From positions 1 to 64,000 of the forward strand of contig JANQET010000013.1 of NCBI GenBank assembly GCA_028278265.1: a DNA stretch of 64,000 nt, written 5' to 3'. Shown here piece after piece: positions 24,084 through 64,000 of this stretch. Made by a program: the position numbers and the translations under genes. Below the pieces are notes generated by a model that ran no database searches, had not been told where the DNA came from, and saw nothing but the letters and a program-made list of their open reading frames with translations. The stretch comes from Myxococcota bacterium. GTDB lineage: Bacteria > Myxococcota_A > Polyangia > JAAYKL01. Every line of letters starts with the position of its first letter. Position 1 is the first letter of the stretch.

Positions 24084-24112
24084 ATAGTTTGTTAGTACGG
24101 CATCCAAACAAT
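24084..24112. promoter_or_regulatory. Candidate ROK/XylR operator ATAGTTTGTT-N9-TCCAAACAAT
   Basis: Inverted GTTTG/CAAAC cores with same 10-N9-10 layout as three other sites in this window. Confidence 0.55.
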
Positions 24113-24239
24113 GGTTGTCGATCGAAAACTGATTGAACTGGAGACAACTTGCATGCTTTAATTTGCCGACATCAACGAACCGGGCAATGGGGGTGCTTTC
24201 GTCCGGATGATTCGGCAAATGAGTGAAGGTGGTATGGCA

Positions 24240-25469
24240 ATGAACACGAAACAAAAGGGTGTAACAGCTGGCCTGGCATTGGGATTGACCGTGGCGTTCG
24301 CCGCAGTGACGTGGGGGTGTGGGGCGGCAGCTCCGGCCGAGCCCACTACACCGGTCGAGTTGGGGCCACCCAAGGCGGTCGAGCCGAAATTTGTTCCCCC
24401 GGACAATAAAATTTTGTTCATCATCGGGCAGGACGTGGAGTCGGTGCGCGAATATACCAAAGCGCTGCCCGATCCCCAACCCGGGGGAGTGACGATGTAC
24501 ACCAACATGGTGGTTCACGAGCTCTCCCCCTTTCCTCCGCTCGCCGGGTTGACCCGCGGCGAAGACGAGGATGCGATGGTCACCGGCACGGCCAATTCTC
24601 AAAGCTCCCAAGTCATGGTGCGAGAAAATCCCAACTCAACGCTGGTGATTGGCCTGTACCTGGCCCACGCGGAAAAACACGGGTGCTCAACTATGTACCT
24701 CGATAAAATCAATAAAGGTGAATATGACGAGTACATCGATGAGATGGCCAACTACCTCAAGTCGCTCAACCGGCCGGTCTACCTGCGCATCGGCTACGAG
24801 TTTGACGGGTACTGGAACTGCTACAAGCCGGAGCCGCACAAAAAGGCGTTTATCCGCATGGTCAAACGGCTGCGCGAGCTGGGGGCGGACAACGTCGCTT
24901 CAGTCTGGCAGTCAGCCACCTGGCCCTTCGACAACACCGAGTGGGCCCAATGGTACCCGGGGGACGAATACGTAGACTGGATCGGCTTTTCCTACTTCCT
25001 CGCCGACACCGGTTATCTGGAGAACCTTCCGCCGAATCCGGACCTGGCGCGGGAAAGCCTGTTGGCTTTTGCCCGATCCCGCAACAAGCCGGTAATGATC
25101 GCCGAAGCGTCGGATCAGGGGTACGACAACGAGGACCTGACCCGCAGCGTGATCAACAAAAACGCGATTAAACCACTGACCCAGGAGCAAATCTGGGACG
25201 GCTGGTACCAGCCGTTCTTCGACTATATTCACGCCAACGCCGACGTCATCAAGGCGGTGGCCTACATCAACTCGGACTGGGACAGCCAGCCCATGTGGCA
25301 GTGCCGCCCGGGAATCCCCGGTGGGCAAGCCGGTTGTACGGACGGATACTGGGGCGACTCCCGGGTGCACGTCAATGAGCACATCAAGACGAAGTGGGTC
25401 GAGGAGCTGAGCAAAGAGGTTTGGCTCCACGGCAGCCCGGAACTGTTCGGCATACTGGGACTGCGCTAA
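24240..25469 (+). CDS. GH26-like glycoside hydrolase lipoprotein
   Basis: Signal with lipobox-like AAVTWGC; YLRIGYEFDGYWNCY, VDWIGFSYF, KPVMIAEAS. Confidence 0.75.
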   Translation: MNTKQKGVTAGLALGLTVAFAAVTWGCGAAAPAEPTTPVELGPPKAVEPKFVPPDNKILFIIGQDVESVREYTKALPDPQPGGVTMYTNMVVHELSPFPPLAGLTRGEDEDAMVTGTANSQSSQVMVRENPNSTLVIGLYLAHAEKHGCSTMYLDKINKGEYDEYIDEMANYLKSLNRPVYLRIGYEFDGYWNCYKPEPHKKAFIRMVKRLRELGADNVASVWQSATWPFDNTEWAQWYPGDEYVDWIGFSYFLADTGYLENLPPNPDLARESLLAFARSRNKPVMIAEASDQGYDNEDLTRSVINKNAIKPLTQEQIWDGWYQPFFDYIHANADVIKAVAYINSDWDSQPMWQCRPGIPGGQAGCTDGYWGDSRVHVNEHIKTKWVEELSKEVWLHGSPELFGILGLR

Positions 25470-25507
25470 CCCGGGGCACCCCCACAAATCAAAGAGAGGG
25501 CTTTAAG

Positions 25508-27001
25508 ATGGCATTGGTTGCGGGCATCGATTTGGGTACACAGAGCACAAAGGTCGTGGTCTACGATGCGGACAAGAAGGAAATCGCCTGTCGCGCACAG
25601 GCCCCTCACGACATCATCGCCGCTCCGGACGGCACGCGGGAACAGAAGGCGAGCTGGTGGATCGATGCGGTCACTCAGTGTTTTGCCCAGCTGCCGGAAT
25701 CCGTCAAGAAGGATATCAAGGCGTTGGGGGTCTCGGGACAGCAGCACGGGTTCGTTCCCCTCTCCGACGGGGGCCAGGTGCTCTACAACGTCAAGCTGTG
25801 GAACGACACCTCCACGGCCAAGGAGTGCGATGAGATTCACCGGGCACTAGGCGGGGACGAGGAGGCGATGCGACTGGCCGGCAATCCGGTTCTACCCGGT
25901 TACACCGCCTCCAAAGTGCTCTGGCTGAAAAAGAACCATCCCAGCATTTTCAAACAAATTGCCACCATCTTGCTGCCCCACGACTACCTCAATTTCTACC
26001 TCACCGGCGAGCGGGTGATGGAGTACGGCGATGCCTCGGGCACCGGCCTGTTCGACGTGCGCCGACGAACCTGGTGCGAGCCCCTCTGTCGCGCCATCGA
26101 TCGGGAAAAGGGCCTCGAGGCCCTATTGCCCCCCTTTGTCGAACCGACCCAACCGGCGGGCCAGGTCAGCGCCAAAGCTGCCGCTGCACTCGGGATCCCT
26201 GCCGGGGCGCTGGTCTCCTGCGGCGGCGGGGACAACATGATGGGCGCGTTCGGTACCGGTGCGGTTAAAAACGGCGTGCTCGTGCTCAGCCTGGGCACCT
26301 CCGGAACGATGTACGGCTTCGCCGATAAACCGATCGTCCCGCCGGGCGGTGAGTTTGCCGCGTTCTGTTCGTCCAGCGGAGGCTGGCTGCCCCTGGTCTG
26401 CACGCTCAACTGCGCCGGTGCGGTGGCCAACGTGCGCGAGATGGTCGGGGTCGAGCTCGACGATTTCGACGGATTGCTCACCGGCTCCGAGCCCGGTGCC
26501 GACGGTATGATCTGTCTGCCCTATTTCGACGGGGAGCGCACCCCCAATCTGCCGGCGGCCACCGCATCGCTGATGGGCATGACGACCAGCAACTTCTGCA
26601 AGGAAAACGTGGTCCGGGCCGCGGTCGAAGCGACCGTGTTCGGGCTGAAGATCGGCTACGACGAAATGCGCCGAGCCGGTATCCGGGCCAACGAGATTCG
26701 CGTGATCGGCGGCGGATCCAACAGCAAGCCCTGGTTACAGATCATCGCCGATATTTTCGAGATGAACGCAGTGGTACCGGTCGAGCAAGAGGCATGTGCC
26801 TTTGGCGCAGCCCTGCAGGCGCTCTTCTGCCGCCAAAATGCCACAGGTGAGCGGATCGCCGTTGAAGACCTGGTCGCCGATCACTTACCCTTTGATCCGG
26901 ACAAGTCGGTCGCCCCGATCGGCGAGAACACCGGTCGCTACGCAGAGATATTCGGTCGCTACGGTGAGCATCTGACCGCCGTGACACCGCTTTTTCGCTA
27001 A
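25508..27001 (+). CDS. xylB: Xylulokinase
   Basis: [28 protein letters not shown]-like [27 protein letters not shown]; adjacent to xylA. Confidence 0.95.
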
Positions 27002-27021
27002 GGCCAAGAAAGGAAATCAAG

Positions 27022-28359
27022 ATGAGCCCATCCAGCACTGACGCGTACTTTCCCAGCGTCCCCAAAATCGCCTATGAAGGCCCCAAGTCGGACAACCCGC
27101 TGGCTTTCAAATTCTACGATGAGAACCGCGTCATCGGTCAAAAGACCCTCAAAGAGCACCTGCGCTTTGCGGTCTGTTATTGGCACACCTTCTGCGGTGA
27201 CGGTTCGGATCCCTTTGGCATGGGCACCTGGCAGCGACCGTGGGCCGAGCACGCCGATCCGATGGATCGGGCCAAGGCCAAGATGGACGCCGCCTTCGAG
27301 CTTTTCGTCAAGCTGGGCGCGCCGTTCTACGTGTTTCACGACCGGGATATGTCCCCTGAGGGATCCTCGGTGGCCGAATCGGAGCGCAATCTCAGAACGC
27401 TGGTCGAACTGGCCAAGATCAAACAACAGGAGACCGGTATCAAATTGATGTGGGGCACCTGCAACCTGTTTTCCCACCCCCGTTACATGAACGGGGCGGC
27501 GACCAATCCAGATGTCAATGTCATCGCCCACGCCGCAGCCCAGGTCAAAGCCGGCCTGGAGGTGACAGTGGAGCTCGGTGGGGGTTGTTTTGTCTTCTGG
27601 GGCGGACGGGAGGGCTACTCCACCCTGCTCAACACCCAAATGAAGCGCGAGATCGAGCACGTGGGCCGGTTCTTCGAAATGGCCCGGGATTACGGCCGGC
27701 GGATCGGCTTTACCGGCGATTTCCTGATCGAGCCCAAGCCGATGGAGCCCTCCAAGCACCAGTACGATTTCGACGCGGCGACCGCCATCGGATTCTTGCG
27801 CCGGTTCGATCTGCACCGGGATTTCAAACTGAACATCGAAGCCAATCACGCCACCCTGGCCAACCACACCTTTGCCCATGAGCTGCAGACCGCGGCGGAC
27901 GCGGGCATGTTGGGCAGCGTCGACGCCAACCGGGGAGACTATCAAAACGGTTGGGACACCGACCAGTTCCCCACTGATCTCTATCAAATCGTCGAAGCGA
28001 TGATGATTATCTTGGAAAACGGGGGCTTCACCCGCGGTGGCTTGAACTTCGACGCCAAATTGCGACGCAACTCCACCGATCTCGAGGATCTGTTCATCGC
28101 TCACATCGGCGCAATGGACGCCTTTGCCAAGGGCTTGGAGATTGCCCATCGCGTCATCGAGGACGGCCGCATCCCCCGTCTCCGCGAGGAGCGCTATCGC
28201 TCGTTCGACAGCGGTGTGGGCAAACAGTTCGAAGACGGCGAGCTGACCCTGGAGCAGCTGGCCGACCACGCGGCCAAGAGCGGGGAGCCGGCCCGCACCA
28301 GCGGCAAGCAGGAGTTGATCGAAAACATCATCAACCAAATCTGTTTCAGCGGCGAGTAG
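27022..28359 (+). CDS. xylA: Xylose isomerase
   Basis: 445 aa; YKVFHDRDM-like [49 protein letters not shown]. Confidence 0.98.
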
Positions 28360-28365
28360 GCCACG

Positions 28366-29979
28366 ATGAACGATAAAGCGGCCCTGATCCACAATCCGGT
28401 TCTCCCCGGATTTCACCCGGATCCATCGATCATTCGCGTGGGTGAGGACTACTACATGGCCACCTCCACCTTCGAGTGGTTCCCCGGCGTCAAGCTCCAT
28501 CACTCGCGGGATTTGGCCCACTGGCGCTGTATCGGCTATGCCCTGACGCGAAAGAGTCAACTCGACATGTTGGGCAACAGCGTCTCCGGAGGCATCTGGG
28601 CGCCCTGCTTGTCCCATTGCGACGGGCGGTTCTACCTGGCGTTCACCGATGTGAAAAACCATCTCGGTGGGCCGGACAAGTCGGTACACACCTTCAAGGA
28701 CACACACAACTACCTGGTGACCGCCCCGTCGATCACCGGACCCTGGTCCGAGCCCACCTATCTCAACAGCAGCGGATTCGATCCCTCCCTATTCCACGAC
28801 GATGACGGTCGCAAATGGCTGGTCAACATGGTCTGGGACCACCGGCCGGGACGCAACAAATTCGGCGGCATTCTGTTACAACAATTCGACGAAGAGCAAG
28901 GCCGGCTGGTCGGTCCGATAGAAAAGATCTTCAGCGGAACCGATTTGGGCTGCACGGAGGGGCCCCACCTGTTCAAGCGAAACGGCTACTACTACCTCAT
29001 CACGGCCGAAGGGGGCACCGGACTCGACCACGCGGCCACCCTGGCCCGGTCCGAGCAACTCACCGGTCCCTACGAAGTGTCGCCGATCCATCCGCTGCTG
29101 ACTTCCAAGGGGAGTGATGATAACACCCTGCAAAAAGCCGGTCACGCCAGTTTGGTCCAATCCCAGTTCGATACCTGGTACTTGGCCCATCTCTGCGGAC
29201 GGCCTCTGGGGCCAAACCGGAGGTGCATCCTGGGCCGGGAATCCGCTCTACAGCGCGTGGTCTGGAATGAGCAGGACTGGCTCGAGCTGGAGCACGGTGG
29301 CAACCACCCCCGTCTCACCGTCGTTGGGCTCCCGGCAACGCCCCAAGCAGTCGAGACGACTGCTGAAATCGAGCACTTCGACGGACCCGAGCTGCCGTCG
29401 GAGCTCAACAGTTTGCGTGTCCCGATCGACGATAGCTGGGCCAGCCTCACGGACTACCCGGGCCATCTGCGCCTCTACGGTCGCGAATCGCTACTCTCCA
29501 AGCACCGCCAATCGCTGATCGCCCGTCGCTTCGACGCCCTCGAGTTCGAAGCGAGTTGTTCGGTCGAGTTCGAACCGGACAGCTTTTTGCAGATGGCCGG
29601 GCTGATCTGTTTCTACGACAATGAAAACTTCGTCTACCTGCAGCTGACCCACGACGAGGAACAGGGCAAGGTGCTGGTACTGTCCCACAACGACAATGGG
29701 CAGTACGATGAACAGCTGATCGCACCCGCATCCGCGTTGGGGTCCGATCCGGTGGAGCTGAGGGTGCGGTTCAAGACAACTGAGTTGTCATTTGCCTACC
29801 GCGTTGACCAACAGGACTGGCGTTCGGCAGGCCGCCCGTACGACGCGACCAAATTGAGCGACGAATACTGTCGGGAAGGCTGGTTTACCGGCGCGTTCGT
29901 CGGCATCTGTGCGCAAGATCTGAGTGGCCGGCGCCGACCGGCAGACTTCGACTGGTTCGCCTACCGCCGTCAACCGTGA
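28366..29979 (+). CDS. GH43-family beta-xylosidase
   Basis: NPVLPGFHPDPSIIRVGEDYYMATSTFEWFPGV; two-domain length. Confidence 0.95.
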   Translation: MNDKAALIHNPVLPGFHPDPSIIRVGEDYYMATSTFEWFPGVKLHHSRDLAHWRCIGYALTRKSQLDMLGNSVSGGIWAPCLSHCDGRFYLAFTDVKNHLGGPDKSVHTFKDTHNYLVTAPSITGPWSEPTYLNSSGFDPSLFHDDDGRKWLVNMVWDHRPGRNKFGGILLQQFDEEQGRLVGPIEKIFSGTDLGCTEGPHLFKRNGYYYLITAEGGTGLDHAATLARSEQLTGPYEVSPIHPLLTSKGSDDNTLQKAGHASLVQSQFDTWYLAHLCGRPLGPNRRCILGRESALQRVVWNEQDWLELEHGGNHPRLTVVGLPATPQAVETTAEIEHFDGPELPSELNSLRVPIDDSWASLTDYPGHLRLYGRESLLSKHRQSLIARRFDALEFEASCSVEFEPDSFLQMAGLICFYDNENFVYLQLTHDEEQGKVLVLSHNDNGQYDEQLIAPASALGSDPVELRVRFKTTELSFAYRVDQQDWRSAGRPYDATKLSDEYCREGWFTGAFVGICAQDLSGRRRPADFDWFAYRRQP

Positions 29980-30106: not shown

Positions 30107-30135
30107 TTAATATGTACGGAGAACAAACAAACTTT
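30107..30135. promoter_or_regulatory. Candidate ROK/XylR operator TTAATATGTA-N9-AACAAACTTT
   Basis: Overlaps expected TSS of the GH1 promoter; same layout as other sites. Confidence 0.55.
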
Positions 30136-30217: not shown

Positions 30218-31618
30218 ATGGAATCAAAGCAGTTTGATCGCCAATTTATCTGGGGTTGCGCAACGTCGGCTTTTCAAATCGAAGGGGGAGCGAGCGCAGA
30301 TGGTCGAGGAGAGTCGATCTGGGATCGTTTTTCAAAGAAACCGGGCAACGTTGCCGAAGGGCATGACGGAGACGTGGCCTGTGATCACTACAATCGATAT
30401 CGCGGCGATGTCGATTTGATGAAAGAGCTGGGGATGAAGGCCTACCGGTTTTCAATCTCCTGGCCGCGAATTTTGCCGGACGGTCGTGGCGCGGTCAATG
30501 AAAAGGGACTCAGTTTCTACGACGAGCTGGTCGACGCGCTGCTAGAACGCGAGATCACGCCCTGGGTCACCTTGTATCACTGGGATCTGCCCCAAATACT
30601 GGAAGACGAGGGCGGTTGGCCCAATCGCAAGACCGCCTATGCCTTTGCCGAGTACACCGAAGCGGTCAGCCGCCGGTTGGGAGATCGGGTGAAACACTGG
30701 ATCACCCACAACGAACCTTGGTGCGCGAGCATCCTCGGCTACCAGACCGGCGAGCACGCGCCGGGGATCAAGGATTGGCCCAAGGCCTTGGCGGCCAGTC
30801 ATCACCTCATGCTGTCCCACGGATTGAGCGTGGGTATTCTACGCCGCAATTCCCCCGATTCGCTCATCGGCATCACCAATGCCCTGATGCACGTCCAGCC
30901 CGCTTCGGGAAGTTACGAGGATCGGGAGGCCTACCGGCATCTCGACGGCACGGTCAATCGCTGGTTCATGGATCCCCTGTACCGCCGATGCTATCCCGCT
31001 GACATCGTGGCCGATCACCGGGAATCGGGATACATCTCCCGTGAGGGATTGTCGTTCGTCTATCCCGGGGACATGGATTTAATTGCCGCACCGATCGATT
31101 TTCTCGGGGTCAACTACTACTCGCGGCAAATCGCCCGCAGCACGGCGATTCCCGAATCGAAGAACGCGCCGCGCGATATTTTCGCCCTGCCGCCGGATCA
31201 GCGGACGGACATGGGTTGGGAGGTCTATCCCGACGGGTTGACCCGCGTGCTCGAGCGGGTTCATCGGGAGTACCGGCCCGGTCAAATCTACGTCACCGAA
31301 AACGGCGCTGCGTACGGAGAAAAGCCCGGTGCGGACGGGCGAGTACCCGATTCCCGCCGCTGTGTGTACCTGCGCGATCACCTGCTCGCCGCCCATTCGG
31401 CCACCGAATCCGGGGTGCCCTTGCTCGGCTATTTCGTCTGGTCTTTACTGGACAATTTCGAGTGGGCGTTCGGCTATACCAAGCGGTTCGGCATTGTCTG
31501 GGTCGACTTCGAAACCCAACAGCGAACGATCAAAGACAGCGCCTACTGGTATCGCGAAGTCATCCGCAACAACGCAGTCTCCCTCAACGGCGCGTTCAAC
31601 AACCCCAACCGGTACTAA
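30218..31618 (+). CDS. GH1-family beta-glucosidase
   Basis: FIWGCATSAFQIEGGASADGRGESIWD, THNEPW, YVTENGAAY, WSLLDNFEWAFGYTKRFGIVWVDF. Confidence 0.97.
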   Translation: MESKQFDRQFIWGCATSAFQIEGGASADGRGESIWDRFSKKPGNVAEGHDGDVACDHYNRYRGDVDLMKELGMKAYRFSISWPRILPDGRGAVNEKGLSFYDELVDALLEREITPWVTLYHWDLPQILEDEGGWPNRKTAYAFAEYTEAVSRRLGDRVKHWITHNEPWCASILGYQTGEHAPGIKDWPKALAASHHLMLSHGLSVGILRRNSPDSLIGITNALMHVQPASGSYEDREAYRHLDGTVNRWFMDPLYRRCYPADIVADHRESGYISREGLSFVYPGDMDLIAAPIDFLGVNYYSRQIARSTAIPESKNAPRDIFALPPDQRTDMGWEVYPDGLTRVLERVHREYRPGQIYVTENGAAYGEKPGADGRVPDSRRCVYLRDHLLAAHSATESGVPLLGYFVWSLLDNFEWAFGYTKRFGIVWVDFETQQRTIKDSAYWYREVIRNNAVSLNGAFNNPNRY

Positions 31619-62300: not shown

Positions 62301-62596
62301 CAATTCATCCCTTTGACGATGAAATCCCGGCCGTTGACCTGCAGCTTGTAACCGCTTTGATCGTGAACCACGGCAACGGTTTTGGCGCTACCGGGAGGTG
62401 GGGGGGGAGCCTGCTCCTGTGCCTCTTCGGCTGTGGGTTCGGCGGCTTCGGTGTCACCCGCGGCGTCCGGGGGTTGTTCCGCAGTTTTTTCCGCAGGTTG
62501 TTCTGCAGGCTGTTGGGGGTTGTTTTGTGCGTCGGCCAGAGAGACTGCCGGACAGATCAACAAAACAGCGATGAATGGTCGTAAAAATCGGGGCAT
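59315..62596 (-). CDS. Glycosidase (clan GH-A-like TIM barrel) fused to C-terminal outer-membrane beta-barrel
   Basis: Likely start MPRFLRPFIAVLL (track start 62620). Signal, Pro/Glu/Ala linker, glycosidase core FIVKGMNWGYVPIGENYRYDLW...FWLLGNENNYH...LLTEFGADAF; C-terminal about 600 aa rich in amphipathic strands, ending EYEFVMYMNVSF. Confidence 0.8.
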   Translation of the reverse strand: MPRFLRPFIAVLLICPAVSLADAQNNPQQPAEQPAEKTAEQPPDAAGDTEAAEPTAEEAQEQAPPPPPGSAKTVAVVHDQSGYKLQVNGRDFIVKGMNWGYVPIGENYRYDLWSKPDAFIAEVLGRDMTMLKEMGVNAIRVEVGIPAKWITFIYQNWGIFTSVNHLAGRYGFLVNGSTRFQVDYSDPATREAIKADVIAMVEKYKNTPGLLFWLLGNENNYHLLPPNVSKGPQDEATRAAAVHLYTMYNEIIGEIKKRDTNHPAVIANGDLLYIDLIKKHCPNLEILGTNTYRGVSFGDLWLRAQKKLGLPVLLTEFGADAFHAQDKKEDHLSQANYLRWQWADVLEQTHGKGNHGIALGGFVFEWSDGWWKYRQILNLDKHDPAASWAAAGYQFDWKDGTNNMNEEWMGICAKGPSDEQGKYELYPRTAYYVLQEAFALDPYAEGVDVTAIRQHFAKLDPKEKGIKYEAAMANVGVNRLSQMFGVGAQMKFEMIYADGDRSMGEDTPEPPKFDHMESFFLDFEVNPSPQLEGRVSLNVLGNVPTNKIDKLFYESRGTPIEIEDADGNPVMLTDNERIKVYQSELSWDNDYFKLDGYYRTGHYHWGAEGDFFGLYREAFYGENIDIYNASAPFGMVLDAKKALKGLKVAFGPQLYWSANPMVLAKYHRQFGPFSFALMHQEDLTKQEASATARIIPEPKTRKTTLFLGYRKGALGLSLGGIFAGSDKLGEKFVAVRDAKGTGYMGTDYAFLTDEIYLLDTLGAKARLTLDVGPIHWYVQGAYQGLVADGGPDNAAAMVPWTLKADGRGNQFNALTGLRYQLNKFFIAPNVLFQRPLEGALPTDERLRGRLYNGVYYPGIKPRNILDDPFAVLGNRETYGFELVLMYDPTPKTWFWDWDNDEKEDAPFAAALDFVYKIQPTQRDATTAISAEYYIFAFDGAPPAKNEWDGRAKLFFNPAWNLHIVSDLYVGQIQGYRPESRLLTRYGAEARLMWDKLQLHAFVKFNDFGPYDYHRDFDLTFPMQVMGDLSYGMSLPKLFIPYTRLGARYQMRWLDQHSERYPHCIDTIPQCTVAQGEDRLGNEYEFVMYMNVSF

Positions 62597-62690
62597 GATC
62601 ACACCTGTTGCGGGGTCCATTTTGATTCAACGGGTTAAAGGATTAAAAACGACATGTTACCAGATTTTCAAAAATTGGGACTGGGCCCAT

Positions 62691-62719
62691 TTAGTTTGTT
62701 CGTTCATCGAACATACTAA
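62691..62719. promoter_or_regulatory. 29-bp near-perfect palindromic operator TTAGTTTGTTCG-TTCAT-CGAACATACTAA
   Basis: 12-bp arms, 11/12 matching; overlaps the -10 element. Confidence 0.75.
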
Positions 62720-62738
62720 TTTCGATCACTATTGTCAA
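62710..62738 (-). promoter_or_regulatory. Sigma70-like promoter TTGACA-17-TATGTT for glycosidase-barrel operon
   Basis: Minus strand TTGACA (62738-62733), TATGTT (62715-62710). Confidence 0.65.
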
Positions 62739-63432: not shown

Positions 63433-63461
63433 TATGTTTGTTAAATGGCCGAATAAACGAG
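63433..63461. promoter_or_regulatory. Candidate ROK/XylR operator TATGTTTGTT-N9-AATAAACGAG
   Basis: Same 10-N9-10 layout upstream of the ROK gene (putative autoregulation). Confidence 0.5.
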
Positions 63462-63477: not shown

Positions 63478-64000
63478 TTGCGAACTGCTGATTCAACTCA
63501 CATGCGCGCGCTGAACGCCAATTTAATTCTCAAATTGATTTGGAAAGAGAAGAGCATTTCAAGGGCGGAAATCGCACGACTCACCGGTTTGGCCCGCTCG
63601 ACCGTGTCGGAAATTGTCGGTCAGCTGCTCGACCACGGCTTGATCCTCGAGATCGGCACGGCCAAATCGGAGATCGGGCGTCGGCCGATCATGCTCGTTT
63701 TCAACTACGATGCGTTCGGTATCATCGGCATCGACATGGGCGTTACCCATGTGGGGGTGTCAATGGTCAATCTCGGGGGAGAGGTCAAGTGCTGGCGACA
63801 AGTCGAGCACCAGGTTCGGCCGGACCCGCAGGGAACCATCGAGCGCATGAAATCACTGGTTGACGAATGCATCACCGAGACCAATTTCAGCCCGGAGCGG
63901 CTGGTCGGTATCGGTATCTCCGTACCCAGCCCGGTAGATCCCGGCGATCCGGCGCAATGCCTTTCACCGCTGATTCTGCCCCATTGGAAGGATTACGATC
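63478..64000 (+). CDS. ROK-family transcriptional regulator (XylR/NagC-like), partial at window edge
   Basis: TTG 63478 or ATG 63502; MRALNANLILKLIWKEKSISRAEIARLTGLARSTVSEIVGQLLDHGLILEIGTAKSEIGRRPIMLVFNYDAFGIIGIDMGVTHVGVSMVNLGGE. Not in the ORF track because it runs off the window. Confidence 0.93.
   Translation, partial: MRTADSTHMRALNANLILKLIWKEKSISRAEIARLTGLARSTVSEIVGQLLDHGLILEIGTAKSEIGRRPIMLVFNYDAFGIIGIDMGVTHVGVSMVNLGGEVKCWRQVEHQVRPDPQGTIERMKSLVDECITETNFSPERLVGIGISVPSPVDPGDPAQCLSPLILPHWKDYD

Follow-up and report, generated by a model that had tools for sequence, protein, structure and literature searches.

A conserved palindrome over the promoter of a laminarinase-like operon in a Myxococcota bacterium, predicted to be the operator of a neighbouring ROK-family repressor

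A palindrome between a glycosidase operon and a ROK gene

The window, a 64,000-nucleotide stretch of the genome of a Myxococcota bacterium, carries near its end a 29-bp palindrome between a three-gene operon on the minus strand and a divergent ROK-family gene (Table 1). The palindrome reads TTAGTTTGTTCG-TTCAT-CGAACATACTAA on the forward strand, with arms matching at 11 of 12 positions around a five-base spacer, and its core on the minus strand is (T)TTGTTCG-N5-CGAACAAA. The minus-strand promoter TTGACA-17 nt-TATGTT is the top promoter-like site of the region, and its -10 element lies within the palindrome, just as the initial annotation had described. The palindrome is located ~70-95 bp upstream of the operon, whose first ORF begins at 62620 or, alternatively, at 62596. 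Two palindromes with 12-bp arms, at least 11 matches and a spacer of 0-12 were seen, versus 3.0 expected per 64 kb; the chance of one inside its own 233-bp intergenic region is P = 0.009. With up to three mismatches allowed, the 7.67-Mb genome holds no second copy of the site. Because shuffling indicates that such a palindrome is not exceptional per 64 kb, we took conservation as the test of significance, and it is from conservation, not from the palindrome alone, that the significance of the site comes.

Table 1. Features of the window around the palindrome and around the further candidate sites
Feature	Position	Strand	Evidence or remarks
Main ROK operator (predicted)	62691..62719	-	reads TTAGTATGTTCG-ATGAA-CGAACAAACTAA on the minus strand
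-35 element TTGACA	62733..62738	-	promoter search
-10 element TATGTT, within operator	62710..62715	-	promoter search
Operon gene 1: secreted TIM-barrel glycosidase (GH158/GH157-like, GH2-clan) with probable outer-membrane beta-barrel domain, 1101 aa	59315..62620	-	PF02836
Operon gene 2 (P2): small putative lipoprotein, 188 aa	58739..59305	-	orthologues directly 3' of the glycosidase in L011, L012, L113 and L114
Operon gene 3 (P3): putative lipoprotein, 228 aa	58037..58723	-	orthologues at the equivalent position in L011, L012, L113 and L114
ROK-family repressor, window part	63478..63999	+	PF00480 (1.5e-49) and N-terminal winged HTH
Weak candidate operator TATGTTTGTTAAATGGCCGAATAAACGAG ahead of the ROK gene	63433..63461		matrix score 11.2; 0.08 expected in the window's intergenic DNA
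Second regulon operator (candidate) TTAATATGTACGGAGAACAAACAAACTTT	30107..30135	+	matrix score 21.5
GH1 beta-glucosidase behind the 30107 site	30218..31618	+	PF00232, TIGR03356
Third, weaker candidate operator TTTGTTAGTACGGCATCCAAACAATGGTT	24088..24116	+	matrix score 18.1; 0.004 expected in the window's intergenic DNA
GH26-like, xylulokinase, xylose isomerase and GH43 beta-xylosidase genes (GH26-xylB-xylA-GH43) behind the 24088 site	24207..29979	+	

The AlphaFold model of the first operon product is of moderate confidence (mean pLDDT 61.5) and shows a TIM barrel followed by ~20 long strands. Its top Foldseek matches are the BuGH158 endo-laminarinase and GH157, with outer-membrane barrels further down the list, and the protein ends in ...YMNVSF. 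Orthologues of the entire glycosidase-barrel fusion can be found in several phyla.

The ROK gene runs past the window end but is complete on the contig (G000:C503:63478-64704, equal to L002:7478-8701) and encodes 408 amino acids. It starts 0.76 kb from the palindrome, in agreement with the ~0.8 kb given earlier. The protein has the build of a ROK-family repressor over its whole length, with a winged HTH (residues 17-56) and a C-terminal ROK domain (PF00480, residues 83-386), and it aligns at full length with NagC, Mlc and Lmo0178. The phosphate loop, DxGGTK in ROK kinases, has been lost (GIDMGVTHVG is at its place), and the sugar-binding motifs NDAN and ExGH are kept (VDNDANLGALAE and GEIGH). 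The zinc motif H-x9-CxCGxxGC is not matched (STASQTLFGHKGGL), the cysteines of the CxCGLxGC found in most orthologues having given way to TLFGHKGG. These cysteines are also gone in L086, whose site is nonetheless perfect, and in the Herpetosiphon locus L116. The loss is a deviation rather than a breach of a universal requirement; it could alter DNA binding or sensing. No second HTH-bearing ROK protein turned up in the genome, whose other ROK match is a 292-aa frame of kinase size.

Conservation of the site with a clade of ROK proteins

Four genomes that share the class but not the family have glycosidase orthologues with 46-49% identity, and in two of them the ROK and GH16 genes share the locus of the glycosidase orthologue. 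The palindrome, with an identical five-base spacer, is present in the ROK/glycosidase loci of all four other genomes of the class, for example as ATAGTTTGTTCGACAGGCGAACAAAGTCA (L013), ATAGTTTGTTCGCTGGTCGAACAAAGTGA (L014) and ATACTTGGTTCGTTGCTCGAACAAACCGA (L011), and in genome G054 it lies on the contig carrying the ROK gene (L058, L081). The relatives' sites read ACTTTGTTCG-N5-CGAACAAAGT. Among 290 genomes of the class, 12 have the site (at most one mismatch), 12 have a ROK orthologue (E below 1e-90) and 8 have both (hypergeometric P = 2e-10, although the genomes are not independent). Within the same family, the 13 other genomes (G001-G013) yielded no ROK orthologue and no full-length glycosidase orthologue, with only a weak partial match in G002. 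The locus is thus patchy, and has been either acquired by transfer or widely lost.

The association extends across phyla. A contig search with the single glycosidase protein returned no match, whereas one with the ROK alignment gave orthologues in named genomes of Myxococcota, Planctomycetota, Gemmatimonadota, Ignavibacteriota, Fidelibacterota, Eiseniibacteriota and Krumholzibacteriota, and in bins labelled Pseudomonadota. Among the 36 ROK-orthologue loci, which come from about eight phyla and two of which belong to genomes already in the class set, 26 have a site matching at least 13 of the 16 core positions; the core used for counting was derived from the first four genomes and then applied to the others. 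The site is found in 16 of the 17 loci with full 13-kb context, and nine of the ten loci lacking it on the contig are short or edge-truncated contigs. As controls, the reversed pattern was found in none of the 36 loci, and the site in none of 43 Actinomycetota loci, which encode more distant ROK proteins and come almost exclusively from Streptomyces. In the ROK tree, the site-bearing clade and Actinomycetota are split at 98/95. The recognition helix reads SRSTVS in most members of this clade, ARSTVS in the window's ROK protein and SAATVS in the site-less Streptomyces proteins.

Taken together, 47 sites give the consensus A(C/G)TTTGTTCG-N5-CGAACAAA(G/C)T. A perfect TTGACA is located 13-19 nt ahead of the 29-mer in 23 of the 47 sites, so that the operator falls over the -10 or the start region, in line with the arrangement in the window. 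Like ROK operators in general, the site is a T-rich/A-rich inverted repeat around a short spacer, and it is kept ahead of both the regulated operons and the regulator. Phylogenetic footprinting, which the initial annotation had proposed as a check, therefore gives strong support for an operator of the nearby ROK regulator.

The conserved neighbours of the ROK orthologues, based on our own ORF calls in the relatives' loci, are GH16, GH1, an MFS or Opp-type ABC transporter (the ABC genes recognized by sequence, not by family search), the large GH158-like glycosidase-barrel protein, P2 and P3. CBM56, a beta-1,3-glucan-binding domain, is found in another candidate target of a relative. Laminarin is a beta-1,3-glucan that serves as a storage sugar in algae and fungi, and the neighbour content, the BuGH158-like model and CBM56 together point to it. 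We also considered XylA and XylB as conserved neighbours and rejected them, since neither xylA nor xylB, nor any relative of the window's XylA, XylB and GH43 genes, was found in the examined loci of other genomes.

Further candidate sites

We scored the window with a matrix built from 37 sites, all of them from other genomes. The palindrome at 62691 has the top score of the window, 32.3, and none of 60 simulated windows exceeds 18.8. It is followed by distinct matches at 30107, 24088 and 63433, all of them intergenic. The site at 30107 is immediately 3' of TTGACA (30077)-17 nt-TATACA (30100) and 83 bp ahead of a GH1 gene; matches as good were absent from 4 Mb of simulated intergenic DNA, and fewer than 0.002 are expected in the intergenic DNA of the window. 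The window's GH1 protein is orthologous to the operator-preceded GH1 proteins of L011, L087, L091 and L117, and is 60% identical to that of L011, where the gene bears the operator and shares an operon with the glycosidase orthologue. The conserved pairing of GH1 with the operator suggests that the regulon holds despite the 30 kb between its genes in the window. The weak site at 63433, by its position ahead of the ROK gene, suggests ROK autoregulation.

Sites at three mismatches number 53 in the genome, versus 12 for the reversed control; we rejected them as regulon members because most adjoin genes without a carbohydrate family. One candidate site at L061:5513-5541 (G000:C372; score 18.7) lies where a paralogous GH2/GH72-like barrel gene (643 aa) begins, and this gene may be a further member. 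In another genome, a divergent pair at L063:1972-8361 (G076:C456) has two candidate sites and encodes a TonB-dependent receptor and a CBM56 protein that also has a di-haem oxidoreductase domain. A perfect palindrome with 10-bp arms, TAGTTCGTTT-CAC-AAACGAACTA, was also found at L002:10719-10741 (G000:C503:66719-66741), upstream of a lipoprotein-GH16 gene pair; its letters are like those of the ROK half-site, and its spacing is different.

A predicted beta-1,3-glucan regulon and its alternatives

The palindrome is very probably the operator of a beta-1,3-glucan (laminarin) regulon, bound by the divergent neighbouring ROK repressor. The site, its position on the promoter, its conservation with the ROK clade and the gene content can be read directly from the sequences, and from them we infer binding by the ROK protein, repression rather than activation, and the nature of the effector. 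Each TTTGTTCG half-site would take one winged HTH of a ROK dimer, and the Arg/Gly linker (GRRP) probably reads the minor groove at the flanks. Bound there, on the -10 and the start region of the TTGACA-17-TATGTT promoter, the repressor would block RNA polymerase. Degradation of beta-1,3-glucan would yield glucose, laminaribiose or some small beta-glucoside of that kind, which binds the ROK domain and releases the repressor, turning on the laminarinase/porin operon and, via the second operator copy at 30107, the GH1 beta-glucosidase. The ROK gene itself may be autoregulated via 63433.

Functionally, our best reading is that the regulon resembles that of BglR, a ROK protein of Thermotoga maritima, with which it is likened by gene content and logic. 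The operon bglREFGKL-TM0026-bglB-lamA places laminarinase, beta-glucosidase and transporter genes under BglR, which responds to cellobiose and glucose (PMC3750489). Here, too, a ROK gene is found with laminarinase, beta-glucosidase and transporter genes under one operator: the repressor adjoins the laminarinase and beta-glucosidase, an Opp-type ABC transporter occurs in relatives of the locus, and the induction logic proposed here is likewise that of a beta-glucoside. It differs from the Thermotoga system in its phylum, in the fusion of the laminarinase to an outer-membrane barrel, and in the MFS transporter of many members.

It is quite unlikely that the palindrome is instead a XylR operator, with a ROK protein that senses xylose and controls xylan or xylose genes. 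The initial annotation had noticed that the half-site resembles that of XylR, with a longer spacing between half-sites. The resemblance is real: the half-site is identical to that of the Bacillus subtilis operator xylO, TTAGTTTGTTTGGGCAACAAACTAA (PMC12034463), whose left arm is TTAGTTTGTTTG versus TTAGTTTGTTCG here, but xylO is xylose-specific and its palindrome spacing is shorter in the published register. The longer spacing vanishes in the register of the Paenibacillus polymyxa XylR operator, ACTTWGTTTA-N5-TAVACAAAGT, which is bound by its ROK protein in EMSA (PMC9104551), because the relatives' sites read ACTTTGTTCG-N5-CGAACAAAGT in the same register. This operator is of equal length with an equal N5 spacer, and its arms match the family consensus ACTTTGTTCG at 8 of 10 positions; it differs in having TA rather than CG beside the spacer, in controlling xylose genes and in spanning -35 regions. 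The half-sites TTTGTTC and GAACAAA are also identical to those of the ROK-bound RokB site at Streptomyces PnovH, TTTGTTC-N11-GAACAAA (PMC4856308), though its spacer is 11 rather than 7 and its regulon another one. The likeness to XylR is a ROK-family likeness. A literature search by the motif letters returned only primer sequences.

The effector named in the initial annotation, xylose, finds no support in the conserved neighbours. Xylose is unlikely as the main effector because the genes conserved beside the ROK clade (GH16, GH1 and GH158-like) are beta-1,3-glucan genes, and control of xylose genes across relatives, as in a XylR regulon, was not found. This verdict has to be qualified for the genome studied here, whose own GH26-xylB-xylA-GH43 cluster lies in the same window behind the weaker site at 24088. 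That site may be an add-on, and this genome may have added the xyl operon to the regulon.

It is very improbable that some other DNA-binding protein, with its gene elsewhere, uses the palindrome as its conserved operator and that the ROK gene is a passenger. The zinc-motif cysteines lost from this genome's ROK protein would fit such a passenger, but the site and the ROK orthologue are found together in different phyla and in genomes where the neighbours differ, sites adjoin the ROK gene itself in L090 and L114, and verified ROK operators have the same architecture. We can practically dismiss a chance palindrome, or a hairpin that is transcribed but has no regulatory role: even though ~3 palindromes of such quality are expected in 64 kb, sequence, spacer and promoter position are kept over several phyla, a Rfam scan of the palindrome region gave no match, and transcription would start within the palindrome so that this promoter gives no full hairpin transcript.

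With the palindrome read as the ROK operator of a beta-1,3-glucan regulon, we give even weight to a broader proposal, namely that this is an undescribed regulon, comprising a dedicated ROK clade, the operator ACTTTGTTCG-N5-CGAACAAAGT, the laminarinase-barrel fusion and two small lipoproteins, which has travelled, operator included, as one unit among Myxococcota, Planctomycetota, Gemmatimonadota, Ignavibacteriota, Fidelibacterota, Krumholzibacteriota and other phyla, and has captured a xylose operon here. It would be unusual for a laminarinase to be built onto its own porin. How ROK proteins change operator (GTTCG versus GTTTA) as the recognition helix changes could be studied cleanly in this clade. 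Reading a palindrome by eye has led to a regulon with predicted members, one of them elsewhere in the same window, and to a testable operator and regulator for the use of laminarin, a major carbon flux in algae. The phyla concerned are mostly uncultivated, and very little is known about their transcription factors.
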